Both the position numbers and the translations under genes were made by a program. 64,000 nucleotides of DNA from positions 5,084,001 through 5,148,000 of the forward strand of contig NZ_SMGE01000001.1 of NCBI RefSeq assembly GCF_004339525.1, read 5' to 3'. Below the pieces are notes generated by a model that had not been told where the DNA came from, did no database searches, and saw only the letters and a list, made by a program, of their open reading frames with translations. Numbering within the stretch: the stretch's first letter is position 1; each line of letters begins with the position of its first letter. Origin of the DNA: Flavobacterium sp. 90 (GTDB lineage Bacteria; Bacteroidota; Bacteroidia; Flavobacteriales; Flavobacteriaceae). Shown here in pieces: positions 44,813 through 60,507 of the stretch.

Positions 44813-45229
44813 TTAGCTGTATATAATTATTATTGTTCCTCCAATAATCATAATAACGCCTATAATCCCAAGCGGACTAATTTTTTCGTTTAAAAAAATT
44901 ACTGAGAGAACTATAGCAATGGCGACACTTAATTTATCGACCGGCGCTACTTGCGAAACTTTCCCAACTTGTAGAGCTTTAAAATAAAATATCCATGATA
45001 AACCTGTTGCAATTCCCGAAAGGCATAGAAAAATCAGATTTTGCTTCGTCAATAAATGAATGCTGTTTGTGCCGCCTCTGAAAAAGGCAATTCCCCACGC
45101 GAGAATCAGGATAATAACAGTTCTGATTGCTGTAGCCAAATCTGTGTCAACACCTTTAATTCCCATTTTAGCAAAAATTGCTGTCAGCGCAGCAAAGAAT
45201 GCTGAAAGCAACGCAAATATCCACCACAT
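44813..45229 (-). CDS. Half-size EamA-family transporter
   Basis: The 138-residue membrane protein has five hydrophobic helices: WWIFALLSAFFAALTAIFAKMG, AIRTVIILILAWGIAFF, LIFLCLSGIATGLSWIFYFKAL, DKLSVAIAIVLSVIFL and LGIIGVIMIIGGTIIII. This is a single EamA (10-TMS drug/metabolite exporter half) domain, so it must dimerise to work. The pattern WxFYFKALQVGKVSQVAPVDKLS is typical. Substrate unknown; inner membrane. It stands alone between the XRE gene and the beta-barrel gene. Confidence 0.85.
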   Translation of the reverse strand: MWWIFALLSAFFAALTAIFAKMGIKGVDTDLATAIRTVIILILAWGIAFFRGGTNSIHLLTKQNLIFLCLSGIATGLSWIFYFKALQVGKVSQVAPVDKLSVAIAIVLSVIFLNEKISPLGIIGVIMIIGGTIIIIYS

Positions 45230-45360
45230 AATTCTTGATTTTTTGAATTGATTAAAAACAAAGTAAATTCACGATTTAGTTTTAATTCTGAATTTTTAAA
45301 GTTTAGACTGTTTTTTTAGTTTCGAGTTTGGATATTAAGAAAGCGTTATAAATTATTTCA

Positions 45361-45394
45361 TTCAGGATAAATTCAGAATTAGGATATTATTTTG
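45361..45394 (+). promoter_or_regulatory. Direct-repeat operator and -7 region, copy 1 (OmpR-type regulon)
   Basis: TTCAG at 45361 and TTCAG at 45372 (11-bp period) are followed after 14 bases by TTTG at 45391-45394. The same arrangement with the same spacing is found at 47914 and, on the minus strand, at 59204. It precedes the beta-barrel gene at 45412. Confidence 0.7.
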
Positions 45395-45411
45395 CGGTAT
45401 AAATTTTTGAT

Positions 45412-47862
45412 ATGCGTTATTTTATACTAAGCCTGATTTCATTATTCTCCTTCGCAGTTGCTGCACAATCCCCAAATACAAAAGGTAAAATCACCGGAAA
45501 AGTGATCGATTCCGAAACCAAAATTCCGATAGAAATGGCAATAGTGAGTGTCTATAAAATAGGAGAAACCAAAGTGCTAAATGGCCAGACTACAGATCAA
45601 AACGGAGCGTTTGTCATTGATAATCTTCCTGTTGGAGAATACAGAATCACGGTTGATTTTATAAGTTATAAAGAAGTTTTATTCAATACAATAAAAGTAA
45701 ATTTCGATTTAGTAAATCTTGGAAATATTTCTTTAGCGCCTTCATCCAATCAACTTGATGAAGTAAAAATTGTTTCAAAAACTCAGACCGTTCAAAACAA
45801 AATCGACAAAATGGTTTACAATACTGCCAATGATTTGACAAGTCAAGGCGGCGTTGCTACTGATATTTTAAAGAATGTTCCGATGGTAAGTGTCGATATT
45901 GACGGAAATGTAGAATTACAGGGAAATCCTAACATTCGGTTTTTAATCAACGGAAAACCTTCAAGTATATTTGGCGCCAGTGTTTCGGATGCATTGCAGT
46001 CAATTCCGGCAAGTCAAATCAAAAGTATTGAGGTAATAACAAGTCCTGGGGCAAAATATGACGCTGCAGGAACTGGCGGAATTATAAATATTGTTTTAAA
46101 AGAAAGCAAAGTTCAGGGCATTAACAGCAGCATTAATTTATCAGCTGGAACGCGTCTTGAAAATGGTTCTTTTAACCTAAATGCACGAAAAGGGAATTTT
46201 GGAATTGGAGTTTATTTTAGCGGAAACAAACAATTAAATACGAAAACAAAAAGCTCGAGTGACCGTATTTCGTACAATGCAACGAGAGATAGTATCAATA
46301 GATTGTATCAAAATGGAGTAAATCCTTTTACCAGAAGCGGATACCAAACCGGGATAAATGCAAACTGGAGTATAACACCAAAAGATGAATTAACGGCTAC
46401 TTTGGGCTACAATCATTTTGAGAATAATTCCTCAGGAATGACATTGCAAGATCAGACTTCATCATTGTCTAACGGAACGGTTTTATCGGAAATTATAAGT
46501 GAAAGAAATTCAGTAAGTAATTTTAAAAATAATGCTACCGATTGGAGTTTAGGCTATAAAAAGACCTTTGAGAGGGAAGATCAGGAATTGAATTTTCTGG
46601 TAACATCAAGTTATGGAAGAAGCCAAAATGATGCTTCACAACAAACTGCTTTTCAGGATAATGTTGATCCCGTTTCCGGATTAAGAAGTAATAATCCCGG
46701 GAAAGATCATCAAATGGATTTCTCTCTTGATTTTGTGCGTCCGCTTGCTAAGGGATTTACACTCGAAATGGGATCAAAAGTTTCCTTGGAGAAAATCGAT
46801 AATAATGTCGTAACCGATACTCTGGCAACAGACGGATCGTATATAAATAATCAGGGACAAACGTACGCTTTTCAATACAAGAGAAAAATTTATGCAGCTT
46901 ATTTATCGACGTCTTTTGCCTTGTTCAATAACTTTCTGGAAGGAAGAGCAGGACTTCGATACGAGCGTACCAATACAACTGCTGATTTCATTGGCGTTTC
47001 TATTCCGGATTATAATACTTTTGCGCCCTCTTTTACGGTTCAGCATAAATTTAGTGAAGATCAGTCTATAAAATTCGCTTATAGTTATCGTATCGAAAGA
47101 CCAGATTACGAAGAGCTGAATCCGTTTTTTAATATCAGTGATCCGCATAATATCAGTACGGGAAATCCATTTTTAAAACCCGAAATAGGCAATCGTTTTG
47201 AATTGGGTTACAGCAAAACATTTGTAAATAATGCCAATATTTATTTCTCAGGATATTACAGAAGAAATACAGACGATATTCAAAGTTTTAGCACATTTCA
47301 TTCTGTTTTAGACGTAAACGGAACGCAATATACAGATGTTACGTTAACGCAGCGCTACAACGTTGGAACACAAACCGATATTGGAGTAAGTATATTTGGA
47401 TCTGTTAAACTGGATGATAAACTGAACATCAGAACGACTCTTGAATTTGGAGATCGTACTACTACAAATCCGGCTTTGCCAACTGTGAGCGGTTTTAATT
47501 ACAGAGCAAATTTGAATTTAAGTTATCAGTTTGCGCCTACGATGATGGGAGAGATATTTGGAAATTACCGTTCTTCTCAGAAAAATATTCAAGGCGATCG
47601 TCCAGCTTCCTTTTTTTATAATCTGGCTTTGAGAAAGCAATTTTTACATAAAAATGCAAGTTTGGGAATTACTATGGCAAATCCTTTTAATAAGTATATG
47701 AGCCAAAGATCTACGCGATATGGCGAAAGTTTTAATCAAATAAATATTAAGGAAATTCCGGTTCAGTCTTTTGGGATTTCGCTTAGCTATAAATTCGGAA
47801 AACTCGAGTTTAAAAAAGGAGAATCGGACAATAATAATGATCCGCAACAGCCAACAATTTAA
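45412..47862 (+). CDS. Outer-membrane beta-barrel family protein (TonB-receptor-like, OMP_b-brl_3)
   Basis: The 816-residue protein has a signal peptide (to about 19), a CarboxypepD_reg domain (25-108: GKITGKVIDSETKIPIEMAIVSVYK), a short plug-like part (130-205: KIDKMVYNTANDLTSQGGVATDILKNVP, GGIINIVLKE) and a large barrel of the OMP_b-brl_3 type. It ends with an acidic NNNDPQQPTI tail rather than a terminal Phe. It resembles the gene at 56316 in domain order. Both carry the same TTCAG direct repeat in their promoter regions, so they are probably under the two-component system at 59242-61177. Ligand unknown. Confidence 0.85.
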   Translation: MRYFILSLISLFSFAVAAQSPNTKGKITGKVIDSETKIPIEMAIVSVYKIGETKVLNGQTTDQNGAFVIDNLPVGEYRITVDFISYKEVLFNTIKVNFDLVNLGNISLAPSSNQLDEVKIVSKTQTVQNKIDKMVYNTANDLTSQGGVATDILKNVPMVSVDIDGNVELQGNPNIRFLINGKPSSIFGASVSDALQSIPASQIKSIEVITSPGAKYDAAGTGGIINIVLKESKVQGINSSINLSAGTRLENGSFNLNARKGNFGIGVYFSGNKQLNTKTKSSSDRISYNATRDSINRLYQNGVNPFTRSGYQTGINANWSITPKDELTATLGYNHFENNSSGMTLQDQTSSLSNGTVLSEIISERNSVSNFKNNATDWSLGYKKTFEREDQELNFLVTSSYGRSQNDASQQTAFQDNVDPVSGLRSNNPGKDHQMDFSLDFVRPLAKGFTLEMGSKVSLEKIDNNVVTDTLATDGSYINNQGQTYAFQYKRKIYAAYLSTSFALFNNFLEGRAGLRYERTNTTADFIGVSIPDYNTFAPSFTVQHKFSEDQSIKFAYSYRIERPDYEELNPFFNISDPHNISTGNPFLKPEIGNRFELGYSKTFVNNANIYFSGYYRRNTDDIQSFSTFHSVLDVNGTQYTDVTLTQRYNVGTQTDIGVSIFGSVKLDDKLNIRTTLEFGDRTTTNPALPTVSGFNYRANLNLSYQFAPTMMGEIFGNYRSSQKNIQGDRPASFFYNLALRKQFLHKNASLGITMANPFNKYMSQRSTRYGESFNQINIKEIPVQSFGISLSYKFGKLEFKKGESDNNNDPQQPTI

Positions 47863-47913
47863 TCCAAAATACAGCAATACTTAATGCAATATTAAGAATC
47901 ATACAAGGCTTAA

Positions 47914-47947
47914 TTCAGAATTAATTCAGGATTGAGAACCAACTTTG
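47914..47947 (+). promoter_or_regulatory. Direct-repeat operator and -7 region, copy 2
   Basis: TTAATTCAG occurs at 47910 and, after AA, again at 47921, so TTCAG stands at 47914 and 47925 (11-bp period). TTTG at 47944-47947 follows after 14 bases. This site precedes the YncE-like gene and efflux operon. Confidence 0.7.
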
Positions 47948-47969
47948 TATTGAATTTAAATTGCTTATT

Positions 47970-48977
47970 ATGAAATATTTATCGCTGATTTTGTTTTTGT
48001 TTTTCGTTCCTTTTTTAAAGGCTCAAAATATAAAATTATCCAAAGAAATTAAAGTCGGAGGAAATTTAGGATGGGATTATTTATCTGTTGATGAAGCTTC
48101 ACAGCGATTATTTGTTTCTCACGGAAATGTGGTGAATGTTATTGATCTAAAAACAGAAAAAGTAATAGGCACAATATCCGATACAAAAGGAGTTCATGGG
48201 ATTGCAATTGCCAATGATCTTAACAAAGCTTTTATAACCGATGGTGCTGAAAATGCTGTAACGGTAATCAATTTAAACACATTTGAACTTATTGAAAAAG
48301 TAGCGATCCAAGGCATAAAACCTGATGCTGTACTTTATGATAAATTTTCAAAGAAAGTTTTTGTCTTTAATGCTAAAACTAATGATGCCACGGTTCTGGA
48401 TGCATTGACGAATAAAGTTGTCAAAACAATTCCGCTTGATGGAAAACCTGAATTTTCGGTTACTAATGCTAAAGGATTGGTGTACGTAAATATTGAAGAC
48501 AAAAATCAGATAAAAGTTATAGATGCCACCAAATTAGAAGTATTGCATTCCTGGGATATTTCGCCTGGTGATGAACCTTCTGGATTGGCTTTCGATTCAG
48601 ATAACAATAGACTTTTTAGTGTTTGTGGAAATTCAATTTTGGTAGTAACCAACGCAGATACGGGAAAAGTTATCACAAAACTTCCTATAGATGAAGGTTC
48701 TGATGGTGTTTTTTTCGATGAAAAAAGAAAACTGGTTTTTAGTTCAAACGGATCAGGAACGCTGTCTGTTATTAAACAAAAAGATAAAGACCATTATGCG
48801 GTTCTACAAACCGTAAAAACGGCTAAAGGCGCCAGAACGCTCACAATGAGTAAAGCTACAGGCACTTTGTATCTTCCAACAGCGAGTTTTGGAGAAGCTC
48901 CGGCTGCAACAAATGATAATCCAAATCCACGTGCGCCAATTACGCCGGATTCTTTTAAGATTCTCGTGCTAAAGTAA
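47970..48977 (+). CDS. YncE-like beta-propeller protein, secreted
   Basis: From ATG 47970 (MKYLSLILFLFFVPFLKAQN; TTG 47961 adds MLI) the product is 335 residues with a signal peptide. The mature part is built of repeated four-strand blades: GWDYLSVDEASQRLFVSHGNVVNVIDLKTEKVIGTI, AFITDGAENAVTVINLNTFELIEKV, GLVYVNIEDKNQIKVIDATKLEVLHSW, typical of YncE/YVTN seven-blade propellers. It is probably periplasmic and may bind a small ligand or DNA as YncE does. It starts the run toward TolC and the RND genes (28-nt gap to 49005). Confidence 0.82.
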   Translation: MKYLSLILFLFFVPFLKAQNIKLSKEIKVGGNLGWDYLSVDEASQRLFVSHGNVVNVIDLKTEKVIGTISDTKGVHGIAIANDLNKAFITDGAENAVTVINLNTFELIEKVAIQGIKPDAVLYDKFSKKVFVFNAKTNDATVLDALTNKVVKTIPLDGKPEFSVTNAKGLVYVNIEDKNQIKVIDATKLEVLHSWDISPGDEPSGLAFDSDNNRLFSVCGNSILVVTNADTGKVITKLPIDEGSDGVFFDEKRKLVFSSNGSGTLSVIKQKDKDHYAVLQTVKTAKGARTLTMSKATGTLYLPTASFGEAPAATNDNPNPRAPITPDSFKILVLK

Positions 48978-49004
48978 TTTGATATAATTTTTGAAAAGCA
49001 AAGG

Positions 49005-50246
49005 ATGAAAAGGTATTTTTTCTTCATACTTGTTTTGATTTTGATTGGTTCCAAATCTTTCTCTCAGGAGAAAGATTTGTTTTACTTCATAAACAAAGCA
49101 AGGACAAATTCTCCCTTACTGGCAGATTATCAAAATCAGATTAAAATCTCAACTCTTGATAGTCTCCTGAACAGGGCTTCTTATAAAACTCAGGTGGCAG
49201 CAAATTTAAATGCAAATTATGCTCCTGTAATTAACGGTTATGGTTATGATACCGCTTTGAGTAACGGTCAGATGGTTTCGGCGCTAGTTGGTTTTAACCA
49301 AAGAATATTAGGAAAAGGGCAAATTAGTTCGCAGGCAGAATCTTTCAAATTGATCAAAGATGCTTTGGTAATCAACAAAAAGATTGCGGTAAAAGATTTG
49401 GATAAAAGTATTATTTCACAATATATAACCGCTTTTGGTACAGAAGAACAAATGGTTTTTAATAATAAAGTTACAACACTTTTAAAAGAAGAAGAAGTAA
49501 TCTTAAAGAAACTGACTAAAAATTCTATTTACAAACAAACAGATTATCTGATTTTTAACGCTACTATAAAACAACAGGAACTTACCGCTTTACAGCTAAA
49601 ACAGCAATATCAAAATGATCTCGCACTTTTAAATTACCTCACAGGAGAAAAAGATACGGCTGAAATAAAATTGAAATCCCCCGATTTAACTATAAAACCG
49701 GATCAGGAACAAAGCAATATTTTTCTGAAACAATTTGAAACCGACAGCTTAAAAATTAAAAATGCCGATAAACTAATTGATAATAATTATAAACCTTCAC
49801 TTTCTGTTTTGGGAGATGCAGGATACAATTCGAGTTTTATCTATCAAGGCTATAAAAACTTCGGATTTAGTGTTGGTTTAGGGTTGAGTATTCCTATTTA
49901 TGATGGAAATCAGCGAAGTCTTCAGCATCACAAAAATAGTATGGCGCTGGCAACAAATGAAGGTTATACTAAGAATTTTAAAAGGCAATACGATCAGCAA
50001 TTATTTCTTTTAAATCAAAGAATTAGTCAAAGTACCGAAACCAATAAAATGCTGCAATCACAGCTTTCTGTTGCCGAAGCGCTTATTGAAGCAAATAAAA
50101 AACTATTGCTCAGTGGAGACGCTCAAATCACAGAATACATTATTGCGCTTAGTAATCTTATTTCGATTGAGAATGCCATTACGCAAAACAGTGTCAATAA
50201 TCTTCAGACAATTAACGAAATCAATTACTGGAAATCAAATGAATAA
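49005..50246 (+). CDS. TolC-family outer-membrane efflux protein
   Basis: The 413-residue protein has a signal peptide (to about 20) and two outer-membrane efflux protein repeats with long helices (NKARTNSPLLADYQNQIKISTLDSLLNRASYKTQVAANLNANYAPV; second repeat LKIKNADKLIDNNYKPSLSVLGDAGYNSS, GLSIPIYDGNQRSLQHHKNS). It forms the trimeric exit duct for the RND pump downstream. Its end overlaps the adaptor start by 8 nt. The gene lies 28 nt after the propeller gene. Confidence 0.85.
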   Translation: MKRYFFFILVLILIGSKSFSQEKDLFYFINKARTNSPLLADYQNQIKISTLDSLLNRASYKTQVAANLNANYAPVINGYGYDTALSNGQMVSALVGFNQRILGKGQISSQAESFKLIKDALVINKKIAVKDLDKSIISQYITAFGTEEQMVFNNKVTTLLKEEEVILKKLTKNSIYKQTDYLIFNATIKQQELTALQLKQQYQNDLALLNYLTGEKDTAEIKLKSPDLTIKPDQEQSNIFLKQFETDSLKIKNADKLIDNNYKPSLSVLGDAGYNSSFIYQGYKNFGFSVGLGLSIPIYDGNQRSLQHHKNSMALATNEGYTKNFKRQYDQQLFLLNQRISQSTETNKMLQSQLSVAEALIEANKKLLLSGDAQITEYIIALSNLISIENAITQNSVNNLQTINEINYWKSNE

Positions 50247-51165
50247 ATACACCTATAAAACCGCGGGATTTTTATTTCTAATGATGCTAATTTTAGTTTC
50301 CTGCAATAAAACTGCCTCAACAGAAGCGCCTGTAGCTGTTAGTGTTCCGGTAACGGTTACGCATATTGATACTACAGCAATTGAAAGTTATATTGATCTG
50401 AATGCGACAACATCTTATTTGATCAAAAATACCATTAAAGCCAATACAACAGGATATTTAGAAACAGTAAAAGTGGCATCAAATGATTTTGTTTCGAATC
50501 ATCAATTATTGTTTTCACTAAAAACACGTGAAGCAAAAGTTTTGGGAAATACAATTAATAAAATTGATCCAAGTCTGAATTTTGGAAACGCGATACAAGT
50601 AAGAGCAACTTGCGACGGATATGTAAATGCAGTAAATGTTCAAAAAGGAGATTATGTGCAAGATGGCGATGTTCTGGCGATTATTAATGATGCCAAAAGT
50701 TTCTCGATTGTGCTGAGTCTTCCGTATGAGTTAAGAAAGTTTGTTGCTGTTAATCAAATATTGAATGTTTCGTTACCGGATGGAACTTCAATGCAGACCA
50801 AAGTCGATAAATATATGCCAACTGTTGATCCGGCATCACAAACTCAAAATGTGATTTTAAAAAGTATAAAAGCGGTTAATATTCCGGAGAATTTAATTGT
50901 AAAAGTCAGGATTGATAAAACGGATGAAAACAAAACAATAAGTCTTCCTAAACAAGCTGTTTTGAGCGATGAAACTCAAACTGATTTCTGGATTATGAAA
51001 GTAGTCGGGCATAATATGGCTATAAAAATTCCTGTAAAAAAAGGGATCGAATCTGAAGATAAAATAGAGATTCTTTCTCCAAAATTAAATACTACAGATC
51101 AAATTCTGCTAACGGGAAATTATGGAGTAGGAGACAGCATCAAAATAAAAATCATCAACAAATAA
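50239..51165 (+). CDS. RND efflux periplasmic adaptor (membrane-fusion protein), lipoprotein
   Basis: The 308-residue protein begins MNKYTYKTAGFLFLMMLILVSC with lipidation Cys22; ATG 50239 overlaps the TolC stop by 8 nt. A longer frame to 50071 is only the TolC gene in another phase. Adaptor features are the lipoyl half-motif QVRATCDGYVNAVNVQKGDYVQDGDVLAIIND (about 114-145) and the beta-barrel part FSIVLSLPYELRKFVAVNQILNVSLPDGT. It bridges TolC (49005) and the pump (51170). Confidence 0.88.
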   Translation: MNKYTYKTAGFLFLMMLILVSCNKTASTEAPVAVSVPVTVTHIDTTAIESYIDLNATTSYLIKNTIKANTTGYLETVKVASNDFVSNHQLLFSLKTREAKVLGNTINKIDPSLNFGNAIQVRATCDGYVNAVNVQKGDYVQDGDVLAIINDAKSFSIVLSLPYELRKFVAVNQILNVSLPDGTSMQTKVDKYMPTVDPASQTQNVILKSIKAVNIPENLIVKVRIDKTDENKTISLPKQAVLSDETQTDFWIMKVVGHNMAIKIPVKKGIESEDKIEILSPKLNTTDQILLTGNYGVGDSIKIKIINK

Positions 51166-51169
51166 GCTC

Positions 51170-54100
51170 ATGATACCTTTTTTTGCAAAACATAAAAACG
51201 GACTCAGCACGATTATCTTCCTGATTTTATTAGGAGGGATATTTTCGTATTCCAAAATGCAGACGGGTTTATTTCCTGAGATTACATTTCCCAAAATAAA
51301 AATCATTGCAGATGCAGGTCAACAACCTGTAGACAAAATGATGATTACGGTTACAAAACCTCTTGAAGCTGCTATTAAAAAAGTACAAGGACTTCAAACA
51401 GTAAGAAGCACAACAAGCAGGGGAAGTTGCGAAATTTCGGCTTTTATGGATTGGAATGCTGATATTGATTTGAGTAAAACCAGAATTGAAGCTCAGATTA
51501 ATCAGATAAAAAATGATCTTCCGCCGGATTTGCAAGTTACTGTAGAGAAGATGAATCCGTCAATTCTTCCCGTTATTGGATATGCCATTGACAGCAAAGA
51601 GCGTTCTGCTGTAGATTTAAAAAAGATTGCCAATTATACTATCAAACCTTTTCTATCTCAGATTCAGGGAACAAGTGAAATTAGAATTGTTGGTGGAAAA
51701 GAAAAGGAATATTGGCTTTCGTTAGATTTCCAAAAAATGAGCGCTTACGGAATCACTCCCGCAATGGTTACGCAGGTTTTTAGTGAAACTAATTTTATAA
51801 AATCCAATGGTTATCTGGCAGATTATCATCATCTGTATTTAACGATTACCGATGCACAATTAGACAAGAAAGATGAACTTGAAAATCTGGTTATTCGCAA
51901 TAATAGCAAAGGTATTGTAAGGTTAAGTGATATTTCTTTGGTGGAAATCAGAGAAGCTAAAGAATACATTAAAGTCAATGCCAATGGCAAAGAAAGTATT
52001 CTGATTGCGGTTATCAAACAACCCGATGCTAATCTTATTGAGGTGTCTGATGCCATGAACCAAAAAATAAAAGATCTTAAGGCAATACTTCCGAAAGACA
52101 TTACGATAAAACCTTTTTATGAACAGGCAAATTTTGTAAATGATGCTGTAAAAAGTGTTACAGACAGTCTTTTGATAGGTTTATTTCTGGCGATTATTGT
52201 TGCGGTTTTGTTTTTAAAATCGGCGAAAGCCAGTGCAACCATTTTAATCACGATTCCCGTTACGTTATCCTTAACGCTTATCATATTATATTTTACAGGA
52301 CAAACATTCAATATTATGACATTGGGCGCGATTGCAGCTGCTTTGGGATTAATTATTGACGATGCGATTGTGGTAGTCGAGCAAATTCATAGAACTCACG
52401 AAGAACATCCTGACGAACCTACAGTAACATTGCTTCAAAAAGCGATGAAATATTTGCTTCCCGCAATGACAGGTTCTTCGATTAGTACAATCGTGATTTT
52501 TATTCCATTTGTATTGATGAGCGGAGTTGCGGGATCTTATTTTAAAGTTCTGACAGACACAATGATTATCACGCTGGTTTGTTCGTTTTTGGTAACCTGG
52601 TTATTGCTTCCTGTAATCTATTTATGGTTGTCACCAAAAAAAGTTGTATCGGTTAAAAATGAAAACATTCACCACGAAGTTAAAAAGCAAAAATGGGTTT
52701 CTTATTTTATGGAAAAACCTGTTTTAAGTATCGTTTTCTGTTTGATCTTGGTGCTTTCTATATTCTTAATTCTTCCAAATTTAGAAACCGGATTTCTACC
52801 GGAAATGGATGAAGGAAGTATCGTTTTGGATTATGAATCTCCACCGGGAACTTCTCTTGAAGAAACAGACCGAATGCTTCAGGAAGTCGAAAAGATAATC
52901 ATTAAAAATCCCGATGTAGAAGCGTATAGCCGAAGAACAGGAACACAAATGGGATTTTTTATTACAGAACCCAATACGGGAGATTATCTGATTCAGTTAA
53001 AGAAAGACAGATCAAATACAACCAATGATGTTATTGATGCTATAAGGCTAAAAATTGAAAACAGTCAGCCTGCACTTCGTATTGATTTCGGACAGGTTAT
53101 TGGCGATATGTTGGGAGATCTTATGAGTTCGGTTTCGCCTATCGAAGTTAAAATTTACGGAAACGATCAAACCAAACTGCATCAAATAGCCAAAGAAGTT
53201 GCCACAATAATTGAAAATACCAAAGGAACCGCAGATGTTTTTGACGGAACGGTATTAGCTGGTCCAAGTATAAATATTGAGCCTAATTATTCTTTATTAT
53301 CACAATACGGAATGACGCCTGCTGATCTTCAGTTTCAGATGCAAAGCCAGCTCGAAGGAAATATTATTGGTACTTTATTAGAACAGGAACAGTCAACGCC
53401 AATTCGTTTGATTTATAAAAATTCTGAGAAAAGAAGTCTGGATCAGATTAAGGGATTGCAGGTTTTTCTTCCGACAGGACAAGCTATTCCACTTTCTAAT
53501 TTGGTAAAAATTACACCGGAAAAAGGAAGCGCTGAAGTACAAAGAGAAAATCTACAAATGATGAGCGTTGTTACAGGAAGACTCGATAACAGAGGTTTAG
53601 GAACTGTTATGGCAGAAATTCAGAAAAATGTTGGAAAAAATATTGTATTGCCGCAAGGTTATTATATCGAATATGGAGGCGCTTACAAAGATCAACAACA
53701 AGCATTTAGTGAGTTGTTGCTAATATTGGTTGCTTCATCACTTTTGGTTTTTGGTGTGATTCTGTTTTTATTTCGGGATTTTAGGGCTGCTTTAGTAATT
53801 CTTCTGATTTCTATATTGGGAATTTCAGGAAGTTATTTATTGCTTTTCCTGACCAATACTCCGCTAAATGTGGGAAGTTATACGGGAATTATCATGATTG
53901 TTGGAATTATTAGTGAAAACGCCATTTTTACATTTCTTCAATTTAAGGAAACCTACAAACAGACTTTAGATATCAATCAGTCTTTGATTTATTCGATTTC
54001 AACACGACTCAGACCCAAATTAATGACTGCAATAGGAGCTATCATTGCTTTGATGCCTTTGGCGATTGGAGTAGGAACGGGATCAGAATTGCATCAGCCT

Positions 54101-54217
54101 TTAGCGATTGCTGTTATTGGCGGTTTTATTGTCGCCATGCCATTATTATTAATTGTACTGCCAAGTTTACTGGCGGTTGTATATAGAAACCCTAAACACC
54201 TAACTTATTTAATATGA
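51170..54217 (+). CDS. RND-family efflux transporter permease (AcrB/MexB superfamily)
   Basis: The 1015-residue inner-membrane pump has the standard 12 helices and two large periplasmic loops. TM4 carries the proton-relay pair in GLIIDDAIVVVEQIHR (Asp-Asp). Other landmarks are GYAIDSKERSAVDLKKIANY, PFYEQANFVNDAVKSV, GFLPEMDEGSIVLDYESPPGTSLEETDRM (HME-like motif), GDYLIQLKKD, and GVGTGSELHQPLAIAVIGG in the last TM region. It resembles the CusA/HME side and general ACR_tran members, so the substrate could be metal, organic or lipid. It lies 4 nt after the adaptor and completes a full tripartite pump. Confidence 0.9.
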   Translation: MIPFFAKHKNGLSTIIFLILLGGIFSYSKMQTGLFPEITFPKIKIIADAGQQPVDKMMITVTKPLEAAIKKVQGLQTVRSTTSRGSCEISAFMDWNADIDLSKTRIEAQINQIKNDLPPDLQVTVEKMNPSILPVIGYAIDSKERSAVDLKKIANYTIKPFLSQIQGTSEIRIVGGKEKEYWLSLDFQKMSAYGITPAMVTQVFSETNFIKSNGYLADYHHLYLTITDAQLDKKDELENLVIRNNSKGIVRLSDISLVEIREAKEYIKVNANGKESILIAVIKQPDANLIEVSDAMNQKIKDLKAILPKDITIKPFYEQANFVNDAVKSVTDSLLIGLFLAIIVAVLFLKSAKASATILITIPVTLSLTLIILYFTGQTFNIMTLGAIAAALGLIIDDAIVVVEQIHRTHEEHPDEPTVTLLQKAMKYLLPAMTGSSISTIVIFIPFVLMSGVAGSYFKVLTDTMIITLVCSFLVTWLLLPVIYLWLSPKKVVSVKNENIHHEVKKQKWVSYFMEKPVLSIVFCLILVLSIFLILPNLETGFLPEMDEGSIVLDYESPPGTSLEETDRMLQEVEKIIIKNPDVEAYSRRTGTQMGFFITEPNTGDYLIQLKKDRSNTTNDVIDAIRLKIENSQPALRIDFGQVIGDMLGDLMSSVSPIEVKIYGNDQTKLHQIAKEVATIIENTKGTADVFDGTVLAGPSINIEPNYSLLSQYGMTPADLQFQMQSQLEGNIIGTLLEQEQSTPIRLIYKNSEKRSLDQIKGLQVFLPTGQAIPLSNLVKITPEKGSAEVQRENLQMMSVVTGRLDNRGLGTVMAEIQKNVGKNIVLPQGYYIEYGGAYKDQQQAFSELLLILVASSLLVFGVILFLFRDFRAALVILLISILGISGSYLLLFLTNTPLNVGSYTGIIMIVGIISENAIFTFLQFKETYKQTLDINQSLIYSISTRLRPKLMTAIGAIIALMPLAIGVGTGSELHQPLAIAVIGGFIVAMPLLLIVLPSLLAVVYRNPKHLTYLI

Positions 54218-54274
54218 AACAAAACTACGTTAGTCCGATTGTCAACGTAATATTCATTTCTAAATTTTCTTAAA

Positions 54275-55030
54275 ATGCGAAAAACTTTTTTATTATTTAT
54301 CGTAAGCATAACAGCTGTTAATGCGCAAAATAAGGTGTCGGATTCTATTGTTATTAAAGATACCGTGCAGAATTTGAAATTCAATTATAAACAACTGATT
54401 ATTCCGGGAGTATTAATTGGATATGGTTTTATTGGTCTTGAAAGTGACCAACTTAAGAGTTTTAATAATAATATAAGGGAAGAAGTAACGGAAGATATTG
54501 ACAATAAAATTACTATAGATGATTTTACTCAATATGCTCCTGCGGCTTCTGTTTATGCGCTTAACGCAATGGGAATTGAAGGTAAAAACAATCTGAAAGA
54601 CCGTTCCATAATTCTGGCAACTTCTTATCTAATAATGAGTACTACAGTTTTTTCGCTGAAACATATTACGCACGTCGAGAGACCAGACGGGACATCCAAT
54701 AATTCTTTTCCTTCGGGACATACCGCGAATGCTTTTGCCGGAGCCGAATTTCTTTGGCAGGAATACAAAGATAAGTCGGTTTGGTACGGAATAAGCGGAT
54801 ACATTGTCGCAACAGGAACAGGATTATTCAGAATGTACAATAACAGACACTGGCTTACGGACGTAGTTGCCGGAGCCGGAATTGGAATCCTGAGTACTAA
54901 AGCGGCTTACTGGCTTTTTCCTTATGTAAAAAACACCTTTTTTCCTTCTAAAGAAAAGAAAGTTACCTCAATGATTGCTCCCTTTTATAACGGACAACAA
55001 GTAGGCGCGGGAATGGTCGTACAGTTTTAG
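54275..55030 (+). CDS. Secreted/membrane PAP2-family phosphatase
   Basis: The 251-residue protein has a signal peptide or first helix (MRKTFLLFIVSITAVNAQ) and the three PAP2 motifs: KHITHVERPDG (KxxxxxxRP-like), SFPSGHTANAFAG and YNNRHWLTDVVAGAGIG (SRxxxxxHxxxD variant with N-N-R-H). It dephosphorylates lipid or other phosphate esters in the periplasm, for example undecaprenyl or lipid A phosphates. It lies 57 nt after the RND gene and 81 nt before the glycosyltransferase, all on the plus strand. Confidence 0.82.
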   Translation: MRKTFLLFIVSITAVNAQNKVSDSIVIKDTVQNLKFNYKQLIIPGVLIGYGFIGLESDQLKSFNNNIREEVTEDIDNKITIDDFTQYAPAASVYALNAMGIEGKNNLKDRSIILATSYLIMSTTVFSLKHITHVERPDGTSNNSFPSGHTANAFAGAEFLWQEYKDKSVWYGISGYIVATGTGLFRMYNNRHWLTDVVAGAGIGILSTKAAYWLFPYVKNTFFPSKEKKVTSMIAPFYNGQQVGAGMVVQF

Positions 55031-55111
55031 TGCCTTAGAATTATCAATAAAGATTATTAGTAACAATTTTAAATACCACAAGGCTGATTTAAGTCTTAAA
55101 ATTTGCTGCAA

Positions 55112-56176
55112 ATGAAAATCTCAAAAAAAATAAACAATTTTCGAAGGAAAGCGATGCGATTCTTAACCAAAAACATTGGTTCTTCCCAAAAAGATTCTAA
55201 GAAGATTATAGATAATCCATCAGAGATAAAGCAAATTTTGATTTGCAGACCAAACGCAAGACTTGGAAATCTTTTGCTCATAACTCCTTTAATTAAAGAG
55301 GTCAGTTCGGCTTTCCCCGAGGCTCAAATTGACCTTTTTGTTAAAGGCGGTCTGATGCCAATTATCTTGAAAAATTACACTCAGATTGGTGATATTATTG
55401 TGCTTCCGAAAAAGCCTTTCAGTAATCTTTTGGCTTATGCGAAAGTTTGGTTCAAAATAGCAAGTAAAAACTATGATCTAGCCATAAATGTAGACAAAGA
55501 TTCTTCGTCAGGCAGATTGGGTGTTGAACTTTCTCATGCTGCTTTTAAATTTTATGGAGATGATTTAAATGAAAATGAGACTAAACCAAAAGATTATCAG
55601 CATATCGCCAAATATCCGGTATATAATTTCAGGAATTTTTTGAAAAGTGTTTCGGTAAATACCAGTGAGAAATCGGTCTCAAAAACCGATCTGAAATTAG
55701 ATGAAAAGGAACTGGTTCGCGGAGCAGAAATTCTTCATGATAAGTTTGATAATAACAAACCAACAATCGCAATTTTTACTTACGCAACAGGTAATAAATG
55801 TTTCTCTGAATTTTGGTGGAAAGATTTTTATGAACTTTTAAAAGTAAAATACGAAAGAGATTATAATATTCTTGAAATTTTACCAGTCGAAAATGTTTCT
55901 CAGATTAATTTTAAAGCAACAAGTTTCTACAGTAAAGACATACGCGAAATTGGCGCAGTTATAGCCAACACAACTTTATTTATTGGCGCAGACAGCGGTA
56001 TAATGCATCTTGCAAATGCAGTTCATACTCCTGTAATCGGATTATTTTCGGTATCAAATCTTGAAAAATACAAGCCTTTTGGCAATGGTTCTCAGGGAAT
56101 TGATACTAATATTGTCGTTAGTAAAAATCAATATGTATTAATTATTGACGAGATTTTGATGGCGAAAAAGAAGTAG
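55112..56176 (+). CDS. Glycosyltransferase family 9 protein (heptosyltransferase-like)
   Basis: From ATG 55112 (MKISKKINNFRRKAMRFLTKNIG) the product has 354 residues. It has the GT9 pattern: ILICRPNARLGNLLLITPLIKEVSSAFPEAQIDLFVKG (about 50-90), a middle NYDLAINVDKDSSSGRLGVEL, and ANTTLFIGADSGIMHLANAVHTPVIGLFS (about 288-316), where the (T/A)xDSGIMHLA motif contacts the nucleotide sugar. It probably adds a heptose or related sugar to LPS core in the cytoplasm. It ends 45 nt before repeat C copy 2. Confidence 0.85.
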   Translation: MKISKKINNFRRKAMRFLTKNIGSSQKDSKKIIDNPSEIKQILICRPNARLGNLLLITPLIKEVSSAFPEAQIDLFVKGGLMPIILKNYTQIGDIIVLPKKPFSNLLAYAKVWFKIASKNYDLAINVDKDSSSGRLGVELSHAAFKFYGDDLNENETKPKDYQHIAKYPVYNFRNFLKSVSVNTSEKSVSKTDLKLDEKELVRGAEILHDKFDNNKPTIAIFTYATGNKCFSEFWWKDFYELLKVKYERDYNILEILPVENVSQINFKATSFYSKDIREIGAVIANTTLFIGADSGIMHLANAVHTPVIGLFSVSNLEKYKPFGNGSQGIDTNIVVSKNQYVLIIDEILMAKKK

Positions 56177-56221
56177 ATTTTGTAGAAAAATCTCTTAAAA
56201 CTGATAATATTGTATCGAATG

Positions 56222-56292
56222 AATTTCTCGCAAAGTCGCAAAGCCGCTAAGTTTATAAGCTTACTTTTGCGTCTTAGCGACTTTGCGAGATT
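56222..56292. repeat. Palindromic repeat family C, copy 2
   Basis: Arms TTTCTCGCAAAGTCGC and GCGACTTTGCGAGATT enclose AAAGCCGCTAAGTTTATAAG. It separates the convergent GT9 and beta-barrel genes and may terminate transcription in both directions. Confidence 0.82.
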
Positions 56293-56315
56293 AATTTCAT
56301 TTTCTAAATTAAAAA

Positions 56316-58727
56316 TTAAAACTTATAACTATATCCAAATCGGATTACTTGCGTTTCATAATAATCCTTACTACTATAACTAAAACCCTCTGCTTTTATT
56401 TCTCTTCGTAAAACCAGTGTATTAAAGATATCGGTAGCATTCAAAAACACTTCGCCTTTTCCTTTTTGGACAGTTTTTTTAATTCCTAAATCAACAGAAA
56501 ATCTCGAATCGATTTTTCCTTGCGGAATAATATCAGGTGCCAAATAAATTACAGAAACCTGACCTTTTAATGTTTTATCGAATTGAAGTGTATTGTTCCA
56601 TTTTAAATTTCCGGAAACCATTTGCTGACGTTCGCCGTTATAAATGCTTGGAACCGGATATAAATTGGTAACCGTAAAAGCATCAATCGTATTTTGATAC
56701 AAGTTTCCATTGATATTAAAAGAATACCACGAAGTTATTTCTTGCGAATATATGGCTTCGATTCCTAGTGAAGTACTTTCATCAGCATTTTGGAATACAT
56801 TATAAATCAGCGTACTTCCCGGAACTGTAGTTGCAATACGCGCGATCGTTCCGTTTATAACTCTATAATATACTGAGGAAGTAAAATATCCTTTTGGCAT
56901 TGTATTTTTATAACCCACTTCAAAAGCGCTGGTAAACTGCGGACGAAGCGCAGGATTTCCCACTTTTATAATTTCGGCATCATCATATTTTGGAAAAATA
57001 CGAATATCAACTTCTGCAGGTCTGTCAACTCTGCGGTTGTAGAAAGCCGTGATTTTATTCTTATCATTTATTTTATATCCAAAACGCACATTCGGGAAAG
57101 GTTCTGTATAATTGTAACCGTTGCTTTTGTAAGTTGGATGATCCGGATTTACATCATATTGAAGTTTTACATATTCTAATCGAAGTCCAATTTCTGCTTC
57201 AATTTTATCATTTTCAAAAATATAATTAGAATAAAGCGCAGGAATTATTTCTTTATAATTTGCCCATCCTCCGGCATTGGCATCAATAGGCGAGTTCTCT
57301 CCGGGAAAGAATTGCATATTGGTCGGAATTTCTCTGTTTCTGAATTTAAATCCAGTTTCAAATCTTCCGTATTTCAATGGCTTGATATAATCAAAATTAA
57401 TATCGATTACCTTTTCATCAGATAAAAGTTTAAAAGCATCTTGTCCAATAGAATTTGGTAACGTATTGGTAAAGAGGTATTTCTCGTCTTCACGGTGATA
57501 TGTGTAATTAATTCCCGCATTTAATTTATGACCAGGCTGTTTGAATTTATGCTCATAAGAAGCACTTGCCATTACCGTAGTTTTGAGTTCATCTTCCAGA
57601 AAGGACCAAAGACGTAAACGCTGGGAATAATCCTGATTAAAGAAAGGTTCGTCTCCGTTGTCTATAATTTTTTCACTTCCGAAAAGTCCTGAAAAAGAAA
57701 AGCTGTTTCGGTCATTATAATTCCAGTCGATTCCGGATTTTAGCGTTGTAAAATGAGTGTGACGATTTCTGACCGTTTGTTGGTTGATAATCGTCCCATC
57801 GTCATAAGTTCGTGTTACAAATTCATTTTTGTTAAGTGTTTCTGTATAAAGATAATCTGCCTGAATGTAAGCGTTTATTTTCTCTTTTCGATAATTTAGC
57901 GAAAGCGACGGATTCATTTTTGGCGTCATTTGGTATTGCGGGCGAATACTTGGCAAATTTGCTTTTCGTTCCCAAAGTGCGCCATATCCGGAACTGATTC
58001 CAACTTTACCGTTGAATCCTTCCTGTTTGTTTTTCTTGTAAATAATATTGATAATACCAGCATTCCCGTTGGCATCAAATTTTGCAGAAGGATTATTTAT
58101 AATTTCAATTTTCTCAATTGCAGATGCCGGAATATTATCAAGTCCGGACTGATTTCCAAAACCTGTCAGCGCCGTTTGTTTTCCGTCAATGAGAACCATT
58201 ACTTTATCATTTCCGCGAAGCTGAACTTTTCCGTCATGAAGTGTAACGCCTGGAAGACTTTGCATGGATTGAAGGACAGAACCTCCGCTTTGCGTAATAT
58301 TATCGGCAACAGAAAATACTTTTTTATCCATTTTGGCACTTACTTCTGAAGTTTTAGAAGTTACGACAACTTCGGATAAAGTATTGATATCTTCTTCGAT
58401 ATCGATGGTATTGAGATCCAGAAAATCGGATAATGTGCCTACGAAGACTTTTTGAGATTTGGTTTTATAACCTATAGAAGTGATCTCGAGAATATAATTT
58501 CCGGATGGAACGGAAGGAATGTTAAAACGACCTTCTTCGTTAGTTACCGTGCCGGAAAACATTTTTTGATCTTTTGCAGTTTTTAAAACTACATTAATAT
58601 AAGGAAGTGCGGTTTTTGAAGTTTTATCTTTAATTAATGCTGAGATTGTAGCTGAATTGTTTTGCGCCGTTACGTTGTAAATTTTCATTACAAGAAACGA
58701 CAATACTAGTATTATCTTTAATTTCAT
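56316..58727 (-). CDS. Outer-membrane beta-barrel family protein (TonB-receptor-like, OMP_b-brl_3)
   Basis: The 803-residue protein has a signal peptide (to about 22), a CarboxypepD_reg domain (about 25-108: SALIKDKTSKTALPYINVVLK), a plug-like region (118-225: VVVTSKTSEVSAKMDKKVFSVADNITQSGGSVLQSMQSLPGV, NAGIINIIYKK) and a barrel ending IRFGYSYKF with terminal Phe. The gene lies 10 nt after the PepSY-like gene in the same direction. It shares domain order and promoter-type repeat with 45412. Ligand unknown. Confidence 0.85.
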   Translation of the reverse strand: MKLKIILVLSFLVMKIYNVTAQNNSATISALIKDKTSKTALPYINVVLKTAKDQKMFSGTVTNEEGRFNIPSVPSGNYILEITSIGYKTKSQKVFVGTLSDFLDLNTIDIEEDINTLSEVVVTSKTSEVSAKMDKKVFSVADNITQSGGSVLQSMQSLPGVTLHDGKVQLRGNDKVMVLIDGKQTALTGFGNQSGLDNIPASAIEKIEIINNPSAKFDANGNAGIINIIYKKNKQEGFNGKVGISSGYGALWERKANLPSIRPQYQMTPKMNPSLSLNYRKEKINAYIQADYLYTETLNKNEFVTRTYDDGTIINQQTVRNRHTHFTTLKSGIDWNYNDRNSFSFSGLFGSEKIIDNGDEPFFNQDYSQRLRLWSFLEDELKTTVMASASYEHKFKQPGHKLNAGINYTYHREDEKYLFTNTLPNSIGQDAFKLLSDEKVIDINFDYIKPLKYGRFETGFKFRNREIPTNMQFFPGENSPIDANAGGWANYKEIIPALYSNYIFENDKIEAEIGLRLEYVKLQYDVNPDHPTYKSNGYNYTEPFPNVRFGYKINDKNKITAFYNRRVDRPAEVDIRIFPKYDDAEIIKVGNPALRPQFTSAFEVGYKNTMPKGYFTSSVYYRVINGTIARIATTVPGSTLIYNVFQNADESTSLGIEAIYSQEITSWYSFNINGNLYQNTIDAFTVTNLYPVPSIYNGERQQMVSGNLKWNNTLQFDKTLKGQVSVIYLAPDIIPQGKIDSRFSVDLGIKKTVQKGKGEVFLNATDIFNTLVLRREIKAEGFSYSSKDYYETQVIRFGYSYKF

Positions 58728-58737
58728 TGGGATGTTT

Positions 58738-59166
58738 TTAGTCTGCTATGCTTTTAATATAAGTTCCTTGTTTGTCAAAAATCAGATCAATAGAAGTTAC
58801 CTGAGCTTCAAAAGTAACCGTGCCATGTGCATCAGTTATTACTGCAACTTCTTTGATTTTTTTGTTTTTGTAATTCTTTTGGATGTAAGCCAGAGCTTTG
58901 GCAGGAAGTTTCTTGACGCTAATTTCTTCTTCGGTTTCCAGAATGTTTCCATCGGAATCTAAAAGCATCGCATGTTCGGTTTTACCAACTATAAAATTGG
59001 CTTCATAATTCTCTTTTTCCTTTTCCCATTTGACATCGGTCTGATCGGGATAGGAAATTAAAAAGGTGGATTTTACAATATTAGGAACGTCTTTTTCACT
59101 TACACGCTGCGCTATGGCAAAGGAAGAAAAAAGCAGGACTAAAAATGTTAGGATTGAATTTTTCAT
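58738..59166 (-). CDS. Secreted PepSY-like (DUF2874-type) protein
   Basis: From ATG 59166 (MKNSILTFLVLLFSSFAIAQRVSEKDVPNIVK) the protein has 142 residues with a signal peptide; a longer frame adds 16 residues in a nonsignal stretch. Two PepSY-like units are seen: KSTFLISYPDQTDVKWEKEKENYEANFIVGKTEHAMLLDSDGNILETEEEI and AKALAYIQKNYKNKKIKEVAVITDAHGTVTFEAQV. Such periplasmic proteins often modulate an adjacent sensor kinase or bind cell-wall components. It lies between the histidine kinase (59242) and the beta-barrel gene and is preceded by the direct-repeat operator. Confidence 0.82.
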   Translation of the reverse strand: MKNSILTFLVLLFSSFAIAQRVSEKDVPNIVKSTFLISYPDQTDVKWEKEKENYEANFIVGKTEHAMLLDSDGNILETEEEISVKKLPAKALAYIQKNYKNKKIKEVAVITDAHGTVTFEAQVTSIDLIFDKQGTYIKSIAD

Positions 59167-59203
59167 TTGTACTAATTTTTTTAATGGATTAAAAAATGTA
59201 GTA

Positions 59204-59237
59204 CAAAGATTCAATACGAATCTGTAGGAAGTCTGAA
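59204..59237 (-). promoter_or_regulatory. Direct-repeat operator and -7 region, copy 3
   Basis: On the minus strand TTCAG (59237-59233), six bases, TACAG (59226-59222), fourteen bases, then TTTG (59207-59204). The second repeat has one change, but the spacings equal those at 45361 and 47914. It lies before the PepSY/beta-barrel operon. Confidence 0.65.
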
Positions 59238-59241
59238 TTTT

Positions 59242-60507
59242 TTAGAATTTGACGCTAAAATTATGCAAATTATCTTCGAAAGAATAGTTTATTTCCCACT
59301 GATTAAGTTTTGTGATTTTTTTAATGATTGCCAAACCAAGTCCATTTCCCATTGAAGAAGGATTAGTTTTGGAAAATCGGTTAAAAAGTTTCTCAATTTC
59401 TAATGGCGTATCCTGACCTGTATTCGAAAATATCAATTCATTTTCAAGAGTTGTAATAATGATTTCTCCGTTTTTTTCGTTGTGACGAATGGCATTTAAG
59501 AATAAATTATTGATAAGCACTTCTGTCAAAGCAGGATTTCCTGTAACCATTAGAGTCGAAGTAAACTCGGTTGTAATTTTTAGATTTTTGGCATTAGCCT
59601 GTTCCGTAAAAAAGTCTAAGTGTTTTTTAATATATTCATTTATTACAATAGTATTTTTTTCAATAAAGGTTTCATTGTCAATTTTAGAAAGCAGCAATAA
59701 GTTTTTATTCAGCCTGTTTAGTCTTGAAACATCCGTATTTAAAGCCGAAACCACACAAGATTGTTCTTCATTTAAGTTTAGCTGAGTCAGTGTGTCAATT
59801 TTGGTCTGAAACAAAGCAAGTGGAGTTTGTAGTTCATGAGCAGCATTTTCAACAAATTCTCTTTGACTTTTATAAATGGCTGTATTTTTTTCAATAAGTC
59901 TTTCGAGACTTTTGTTAAGACGATCAAACTCATCGATGTCAGTAGAAATAAAATGCGGAGGTTTATTTTTATCGATTTCAAAATCCTGAATCTGATTCAG
60001 TGTATTATAAAAAGGGCTCCATATTTTAGCCGCAGTTGCTTTTGAGATCCAGATAATCCCAATTAAAAGGATAATAATGATAAAGAGAAACATGAGGGCA
60101 ATACTAAAGACCATTCCTTCCATTTCTACCAGATTTATTTTCTCGGTATAGGTATATTTCTTGCCATTTATAGTTATAGGAGCATAAAGTACACGAAAAG
60201 GTTCTTTTTCTTTTGCAATAGAATCATAGAGCATTTTCCCCACAATAGAATCTTTTTTGATTCCCATATCAGGCACAATCATTACTTCATGATTGTATTT
60301 GTTCCATAAATCAATATCGGTTTGAGTAAAACCTTTATGGCTTTCCTTCGCAAAAGCGCCTTTGTGAAAATGAAGCACTTCATCAGTTTCGTAAATATAA
60401 AGTTGCTGGCTTATATAATAAAATAAGGGCGCCGCTATCAATAAAATAATGATGGCATAAGCAAGAAAGCTGTTGGTTGTTTTATTGAGTAGTTTTTTTT
60501 TATTCAT
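59242..60507 (-). CDS. Sensor histidine kinase
   Basis: The 421-residue kinase has two membrane segments (about 14-32 and 132-153) flanking a periplasmic sensor domain of about 100 residues. A HAMP-less linker leads to the dimerisation box FVENAAHELQTPLALFQTKI with phosphorylation site His224, then N-box (NNLFLNAIRHNEKNG), and G boxes (FSNTGQDTPLE, MGNGLGLAIIKKI). It overlaps the response regulator by 8 nt. The ligand or stress sensed in the envelope is unknown. It is the likely partner of the regulator at 60500. Confidence 0.9.
   Translation of the reverse strand: MNKKKLLNKTTNSFLAYAIIILLIAAPLFYYISQQLYIYETDEVLHFHKGAFAKESHKGFTQTDIDLWNKYNHEVMIVPDMGIKKDSIVGKMLYDSIAKEKEPFRVLYAPITINGKKYTYTEKINLVEMEGMVFSIALMFLFIIIILLIGIIWISKATAAKIWSPFYNTLNQIQDFEIDKNKPPHFISTDIDEFDRLNKSLERLIEKNTAIYKSQREFVENAAHELQTPLALFQTKIDTLTQLNLNEEQSCVVSALNTDVSRLNRLNKNLLLLSKIDNETFIEKNTIVINEYIKKHLDFFTEQANAKNLKITTEFTSTLMVTGNPALTEVLINNLFLNAIRHNEKNGEIIITTLENELIFSNTGQDTPLEIEKLFNRFSKTNPSSMGNGLGLAIIKKITKLNQWEINYSFEDNLHNFSVKF

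Follow-up and report, generated by a model that had tools for sequence, protein, structure and literature searches.

Direct-repeat boxes around a two-component system of Flavobacterium sp. 90 suggest a local circuit that switches on genes of the cell envelope and of efflux

Genes and promoter boxes at the locus

A response regulator (RR) and a sensor kinase are encoded among cell-envelope and efflux genes in a 64,000-nt stretch of the Flavobacterium sp. 90 genome (contig NZ_SMGE01000001.1, positions 5,084,001 to 5,148,000), which is referred to below as the window. The initial annotation had described three promoters with a TTCAG-N6-TTCAG-N14-TTTG arrangement. Direct reading finds a TTCAG pair at 45361/45372 with TTTG at 45391, a second pair at 47914/47925 with TTTG at 47944, and, on the minus strand, TTCAG at 59237 and TACAG at 59226 with TTTG at 59207; in all three the gap between the second pentamer and TTTG is exactly 14 bases. 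These sites are real, while the count was too low: at least five promoters and probably six carry the box, that of the regulator itself included (Table 1). The -7 elements of the three original sites and of the RR promoter each differ from TAnnTTTG at one position.

The box before OMP1 is the weakest by PWM among the predicted members, ranking 13th of 127,952 window positions. The gene itself was found in 9 of 398 genomes of the genus, our own counted (E up to 1e-150). Its repeat is present in all nine promoters read, namely that of the window and eight orthologous ones, and N14-TTTG is present in eight. A small ORF 3' of the box at 61602 was dropped as a regulon member because neither its start ATG nor its stop is conserved in the relative locus L040.

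Table 1. Boxes and genes of the cluster (window coordinates; sites 1 to 3 are those of the initial annotation)
Feature	Position	Strand	Remarks
Probable box before EamA gene, divergent from OMP1	45259..45292	-	weak; second half-site degenerate, N14-TTTG retained; PWM 18.2
Box before OMP1	45361..45394	+	site 1; TTCARGATAWATTCAG-like subtype; PWM 10.0
Box before propeller-TolC-adaptor-RND run	47914..47947	+	site 2; PWM 19.3
Box before PepSY-OMP2	59204..59237	-	site 3; PWM 29.4, top of 464 kb of own genome
Box at regulator's own promoter	61182..61215	-	TTCAA-N6-TACAA-N14-CTTG, then N4 and ATG at 61177; PWM 22.1; absent from initial annotation
Box before PAP2 phosphatase gene	61602..61635	+	new; TTCTA-N6-TTCAG-N14-TTTA; PWM 25.9, second best; kept in relative locus L040
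EamA-like small transporter	44813..45229	-	PF00892
OMP1, outer-membrane beta-barrel	45412..47862	+	family of OMP2
Beta-propeller protein	47970..48977	+	first gene of RND run
TolC-family outer-membrane efflux protein	49005..50246	+	PF02321
Periplasmic adaptor	50071..51165	+	HlyD domains; RND_mfp under its cutoff; mechanical ORF, real start probably further in
RND permease	51170..54217	+	PF00873, 680 bits
PAP2 phosphatase a	54275..55030	+	weak similarity to LpxE
OMP2, outer-membrane beta-barrel	56316..58727	-	CarboxypepD_reg and plug domains
PepSY-like small protein	58738..59166	-	PF11396, searched on longer ORF 58738-59214; proposed kinase feedback modulator
Sensor histidine kinase, NCBIfam PorY family	59242..60507	-	NF052314, 433 bits, cutoff 350
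RR, OmpR/PhoB family	60500..61177	-	receiver (PF00072) and winged helix (PF00486); proposed box binder
PAP2 phosphatase b	61884..62735	+	PF01569

Distribution of the box in the genome

The genome scan proposed with the initial annotation, TTCAG-N6-TWCAG-N14-TTTG, gives four matches in 6.65 Mb, compared with one for the reversed pattern used as control; three are the sites in the window, and the fourth, at 4602427, sits within an ORF that spans 569 aa or more. Within the window, TTCAG-N6-TTCAG with at most one mismatch occurs 12 times vs. 5.64 expected, a count reached in none of 100 shuffles. The degenerate box TTCARN2TN3TWCARN2TN12TTG is matched four times in the own genome and nowhere outside the window, the fourth match being the regulator's promoter, and its reversed control has none; since this pattern was composed after the sites were known, the telling part is the rest of the own genome and five other genomes. 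The latter hold nine matches, five in the regulator's cluster and four elsewhere (reversed control, one). A consensus box with up to three mismatches, likewise composed after the sites had been seen, also finds four sites in the own genome, each of them within the window, and across seven genomes 19 of its 22 matches fall in the cluster, with four for the reversed control. A genome-wide regulon in this organism is thus unsupported.

Loose versions of the box are noisy, because the degenerate pattern with one mismatch yields 32 matches in the own genome vs. 15 in the control. Among loose matches 43 of 53 lie inside mechanical ORFs of at least 120 aa and 10 outside, five further ones without a locus being left out. 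The first simple motif tried, ATTCAGNNTNNATTCAG with one mismatch, was rejected as too loose (33 matches, control 8). The degenerate box misses the site at 61602, the three-mismatch consensus misses that of OMP1, and the EamA site at 45292 is missed by both; therefore divergent sites elsewhere could also escape.

A PWM was trained solely on promoters of relatives, with 18 training sites, of which one (the RR promoter of L041) is a wrongly picked repeat that was retained. Among 926,992 positions scored in the own genome the top four are the cluster sites 59237, 61602, 61215 and 47914, followed by 8970, outside the cluster, and by 45292. Scores of 18 or more occur five times between 40 and 64 kb of the window, once between 1 and 40 kb, and not at all in 400 kb elsewhere, with three per 1.76 Mb of simulated sequence. 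Within the reach of the patterns used, and with 464 kb covered by the PWM, the circuit looks local to the cluster. The noise of the one-mismatch scan could be taken to mean that the boxes are chance, or a mere likeness to promoter consensus in AT-rich DNA; the PWM ranking, the three-mismatch consensus and the simulated counts speak against this, and the validation set described below contradicts it, leaving it hardly credible.

Recurrence in relatives and the recognition helix

The validation set comprises 20 loci in 18 further genomes of the genus, chosen by protein similarity and not by the box, and absent from motif building. Gene rows with less than 40% identity, with a start past residue 30 or lying less than 350 nt from the locus end were dropped before counting. 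A box stands upstream of the RR gene in 20 of 20 loci, 37–39 nt from the ATG in 18 and 158–159 nt in two, with no TTG at the correct distance in four. It also precedes the PepSY gene in 10/10, a sulfatase-family gene in 9/9 and PAP2b in 8/8, the TTG being correctly spaced in only two of the last. Occurrence is partial before EamA (3/6), PAP2a (6/13), the propeller gene (3/5) and OMP2 (4/14), which often lies downstream of PepSY. No box was found before the HK, RND, MFP and GT9 genes of these loci (0/38). The members predicted in the initial annotation, i.e., the RND operon, both beta-barrel genes and PepSY, are upheld. As for the sulfatase-family gene of the relatives, phosphoglycerol transferase and LtaS models matched it weakly, all far under cutoff, and EptA did not match.

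Among 40 loci of Bacteroidota genera other than Flavobacterium, as judged by record titles, whose regulator shares the recognition helix, 33 have a box near that regulator. A PWM match of 16 or more is found in 47 of 54 named YAH loci vs. 8 of 26 others. The half-site sequence varies in step with the recognition helix of the RR. YAH regulators have a TTCAR box in 31 of 37 promoters and no other box class, YNH regulators have NAGAATT in 10 of 17 and TTCAR in one, and YSQ regulators have TTCC in three of five. Six of the 37 YAH promoters fail the regular expression, and in L050 and L051 no box is seen by eye. The best repeat period among 7–16 is 11 both for YAH (7.86, next 6.81) and for the others (7.58, next 6.62).

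The link to the neighbouring regulator, put forward as an inference in the initial annotation, now has strong comparative support from the RR-promoter boxes, the other genera and the covariation of half-site and helix. Kinases are numerous in the genome, where the kinase of this pair has at least 14 matches at E up to 0.001, and the boxes might serve another regulator, e.g., a different OmpR-type protein, their adjacency to this pair being coincidental. This is improbable, given that the RR gene itself has a box throughout the validation set, that the box class tracks the RR helix, that the box recurs near the RR in other genera and that few consensus matches occur elsewhere in the genomes. 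Sequence data show the boxes and how they are spaced, and show them to be conserved and to covary with the RR.

Proposed mechanism and comparison with known systems

Because six promoters around the sensor-regulator pair share one double signal, and many relatives have it next to a regulator of this kind, it is very probable that these promoters make up a single circuit that turns on genes of the cell envelope and of efflux. The explanation that we consider likely as a whole is that the neighbouring RR uses the boxes as its operators and activates a local envelope regulon via the 11-bp repeats. We infer binding, activation, signal and output as follows. Two RR subunits would bind head-to-tail on half-sites 11 bp apart (consensus AAAATTCAAAATTTCTTCAAAATT, with A or G after TTCA). 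Since the box lies where a -33 element would be expected, with 14 bp between it and the -7 element's TTTG, the RR would act as an activator in place of the -33 contact; it is this position that favours activation over repression. The predicted targets are its own operon, PepSY-OMP2, OMP1, the propeller-TolC-adaptor-RND operon, the PAP2 phosphatase and probably EamA, joined in relatives by a sulfatase-family transferase and a lipid kinase. The PorY-family kinase may sense outer-membrane damage or cationic compounds, the PepSY protein may feed back on it in the manner of DbfQ, and the output would be envelope-lipid remodelling and export of toxic compounds.

A box across the -33 region could equally obstruct RNA polymerase, so that the RR would repress and the promoters would stay blocked until the signal arrives. 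We regard this as unlikely, for the -7 elements are imperfect and the spacing is fixed, as expected of an activator rescuing a poor promoter: TTG stands at a single offset from the box in 22 of 31 sites, a partly circular count as 17 of the 31 are PWM training sites. PmrA is an activator. So is BqsR (PMC4682146).

To our knowledge, few response-regulator operators have been defined in Bacteroidota. Under activation by the neighbouring RR, an operator would be readable from sequence in several genera and yield an exact target list, and a kinase family annotated for secretion would be tied to genes for envelope lipids and efflux. How OmpR-type regulators gain new specificity could be tested on the half-site, which changes naturally along with two helix residues. 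A broader reading, about which we are more tentative, combines a phylum-wide, partly plasmid-mobile envelope-damage regulon of Bacteroidota, a functional counterpart of PmrAB/DbfQRS, with a code of two recognition-helix positions (AH, NH, SQ) that sets the half-site and an RR made from a leaderless transcript; PorY-annotated kinases might then mostly belong here and not to type IX secretion.

Nothing on the present system appeared among the listed results of the literature searches. The receiver with a Trans_reg_C winged helix and the 11-bp repeats at target promoters place the RR in the OmpR/PhoB family. The pho box of PhoB consists of two 11-bp half-sites in place of the -35 element; here the sequence is different, the -7 element is that of Bacteroidota, and no phosphate genes are seen in the cluster. 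The kinase scores above the PorY cutoff of NCBIfam, a likeness to PorXY of Porphyromonas, whereas the linked RR consists of receiver and winged helix and the boxed genes are not known secretion-system genes.

The PmrA box (PMC10927774) consists of 11-bp direct repeats with a 6-bp half-site (TTTAAG-N5-TTTAAG in Acinetobacter, YTTAAK in Salmonella). The cluster resembles PmrAB in its 11-bp direct repeats and its targets similar to PAP2 lipid phosphatases, and it differs in having beta-barrels, PepSY and an RND pump among the targets. As to eptA/pmrC as a target, no EptA model matched, and the weak matches of the relatives' sulfatase-family gene are those given above. PmrA is the second-best NCBIfam match of the RR, and its best PDB relatives are DrrD and then BasR/PmrA. 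The operator of BqsR of Pseudomonas is TTAAG-N6-TTAAG (PMC4682146); the N6 spacing is common to both, while the pentamer here is TTCAR. According to PMC12714742, the PepSY protein of Vibrio DbfQRS adjoins the pair and binds the kinase sensor domain, and the system is activated by polymyxin or LPS defects. The small PepSY gene likewise adjoins the kinase and regulator (59242-61177) here, as in DbfQRS/BqsRS, although it belongs to PF11396, the kinase is of the PorY family and the phylum is Bacteroidota. The RR scores 151 bits against the PmrA cutoff of 330 (NCBIfam PRK10643 equivalog) and its consensus half-site ATTCAR does not match YTTAAK, yet in mode of action the best reading is that the system would work like PmrAB and DbfQRS/BqsRS.

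Promoter boxes of the cluster

The cluster at 44.8-62.7 kb comprises an EamA transporter, a beta-barrel protein (OMP1), a propeller-TolC-adaptor-RND run, PAP2a, a GT9 glycosyltransferase, a second beta-barrel protein (OMP2), a PepSY protein, a kinase (HK), an OmpR-type regulator (RR) and PAP2b. The initial annotation described three promoters here, before OMP1, the propeller gene and PepSY-OMP2, that share an 11-bp direct repeat of TTCAG-like pentamers followed by N14-TTTG; a reading of the sequence finds the sites and the spacing exactly so. The genome scan that it proposed, with TTCAG-N6-TWCAG-N14-TTTG over 6,653,812 bases, gave four matches, three of them inside the window, vs. one for the reversed control. 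The fourth (4602427) lies within an ORF that is 569 aa or longer. The promoter-box observation is real, stronger than initially reported, and of a known kind.

Features of the cluster and sites scored by the position weight matrix (PWM; ranks in the window plus 400 kb unless stated)
Feature	Position	Strand	Remark
PWM site outside the cluster	8970		rank 5, score 18.5; no TTG at the right distance
Probable box before EamA	45292	minus	rank 6
Box before OMP1	45361		score 10.0, rank 13/127,952 in the window
Box before propeller run	47914		among top four
RND permease	51170-54217		
Box before PepSY-OMP2	59237	minus	among top four
HK	59242-60507	minus	
RR	60500-61177	minus	
RR promoter, TTG to ATG	61175-61190	minus	
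Box before RR	61215	minus	among top four
Box before PAP2b	61602	plus	among top four
Conserved stretch	61640-61883		between the 61602 box and PAP2b

The PWM was trained on 18 promoters of relatives, one of which (the RR promoter of locus L041) is a wrongly picked repeat, and was run on the window and an evenly drawn 400-kb sample of this held-out genome. At a score of at least 18 it finds five sites in window 40-64 kb, four of them with TTG at 14-16, one in window 1-40 kb and none in the other 400 kb; 1.76 Mb of simulated sequence yields three, none with TTG at 14-16.

The kinase lies above the NCBIfam PorY-family cutoff (433 bits vs. 350), but the regulator linked to it is of OmpR type, and the PorY name may mislead in Bacteroidota genomes. 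Five of 25 selected genomes, this one among them, encode close homologues of the RND permease (E up to 1e-200), and every one of these homologues shares a contig stretch with a PorY-type kinase; a relative's permease (G056:C18:43758-46796) has a single in-frame TAA. The conserved stretch of ~240 bp before PAP2b is well preserved in the relative's locus L040, with no ORF common to both, and is a candidate long 5' leader or small RNA.

The box in relatives

The closest named relatives of RR indicate Flavobacterium as the genus. Close HK relatives show a patchy spread among 81 genus genomes, own included. In many of the 20 loci around the best HK matches the cluster genes are found again in shuffled order, with the same direct repeat upstream of RR, PepSY or OMP2, and PAP2, and in some also before a sulfatase-family gene followed by a lipid kinase. 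These loci hold 31 sites scoring at least 19, with TTG 14-16 bases past the second pentamer in 29 and at offset 15 (N14-TTTG) in 22, a partly circular count, since 17 are training sites and 14 are not.

A validation set of 20 further loci (382,408 bases, 18 other genomes), picked by RR or OMP1 protein similarity, contains 83 matches scoring at least 14, of which 68 are found in the 420 nt upstream of a counted, same-strand cluster gene and 15 are not; 60 of the 83 have TTG at 14-16. In these loci the usually internal genes lack a PWM box: HK 0/20, RND 0/7, adaptor 0/6 and GT9 0/5.

PWM boxes upstream of cluster genes in the validation loci
Gene	Box upstream	TTG spacing	Remark
RR	20/20	16	
PepSY	10/10	10	
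Sulfatase	9/9	7	
PAP2b	8/8	2	
PAP2a	6/13		
Propeller	3/5		
EamA	3/6		
OMP2	4/14		often after PepSY
OMP1	2/8		
TolC	1/6		
HTH	1/2		
DAGK	1/9		

The OMP1 boxes are a subtype scored low by the PWM: by regular expression the repeat is present in all nine promoters read (window plus eight orthologues), with N14-TTTG in eight. Nine of 398 genomes, this one included, carry OMP1 homologues (E up to 1e-150), 10 copies in all; the nine copies whose promoters were read have an RR orthologue at a distance of up to 18 kb, and the tenth is in genome G062.

Two patterns composed after some of these sites were seen also fall mainly in the cluster: a degenerate box (six genomes, 13 matches, nine in the cluster, own 4/4 and others 5/9; reversed control, one) and a consensus box with up to three mismatches (seven genomes, 22 matches, 19 in the cluster and three elsewhere; reversed control, four in all). 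A second-clade box (ATAGAATT repeats, up to two mismatches) gave eight matches in seven genomes (reversed control, one): six in the clusters of genomes G010, G064 and G047, one elsewhere in G047 and one in G004, with none in G000, G052 and G079.

Recognition helix and box type

Of 37 own promoters of regulators with a YAH recognition helix, 31 have the TTCAR box and none has either of the other two box types. The own promoters of YNH regulators carry NAGAATT in 10 of 17 cases and TTCAR in one, those of YSQ regulators TTCC in 3/5; YTH has NAGAATT in 1/1 and YVH 0/1. Base-shuffled promoters match the three patterns at rates of 0.013, 0.0004 and 0.0008. Because the patterns were composed after members of each class were seen, it is the exclusivity of box type that is informative. 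A repeat period of 11 stands out in both regulator sets. Two YAH-helix regulators of 61-62% identity (loci L050 and L051) have no box at their own promoter.

Among the best 80 of 508 named loci (~3.7 kb each), a PWM match of at least 16 on either strand occurs in 47 of 54 YAH loci vs. 8 of 26 others. Flavobacterium stands in the title of 14 of the 54, and at least one of these (L241; cf. G068:C27) is apparently from a training genome; of the remaining 40 YAH loci, 33 are positive. Positives in the same 80 include Chryseobacterium, Epilithonimonas, Dyadobacter, Larkinella, Cecembia and Saprospiraceae.

Promoter architecture and a proposed envelope response

The consensus -33/-7 elements are given as TTTG/TANNTTTG (PMC6847099). 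With TTTG at -7 to -4, the box core would span about -37 to -22, and since it would cover the usual -33 TTTG, its position favours an activator contacting sigma region 4. The RR promoters of the window and of relatives' loci L040-L049 read TTG-N4-ATG in 10 of 11 and N5 in one; as the -7 TTG stands only 4 nt before ATG, the RR mRNA is predicted from sequence to be leaderless. This would be unusual, because leaders >10 nt are reported for 87% of those predicted F. johnsoniae transcripts that have a probable promoter (PMC6847099).

Cluster genes also lie on plasmids (the L115/L116 pair of loci). That of Adhaeribacter swui, typed non-mobilizable, carries RR, HK, PepSY, TolC, adaptor, RND, two PAP2 and EamA; the conjugative plasmid of Emticicia oligotrophica carries RR, HK, TolC, adaptor, RND, a TonB-type receptor and EamA, with PepSY and PAP2 absent from the stretch seen. 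These plasmids suggest that the module is mobile.

The proposed output genes encode PAP2 envelope-lipid phosphatases, efflux, beta-barrels and PepSY, joined in relatives only by a phosphoglycerol-transferase-like enzyme and a lipid kinase (weak model matches). By sequence, the solved regulators nearest to RR are DrrD and BasR/PmrA. The operators described for PmrA (PMC10927774) and BqsR (PMC4682146) have the same 11-bp direct-repeat design as the boxes here, and DbfQ is described as a PepSY protein able to hold such a kinase in check (PMC12714742). On these grounds we propose that the circuit is an envelope-damage response, a signal and phenotype that we infer. RR stays below the PmrA HMM cutoff and its boxes lack the PmrA half-site; by these two measures it is not a PmrA, though it would work like the PmrA class.
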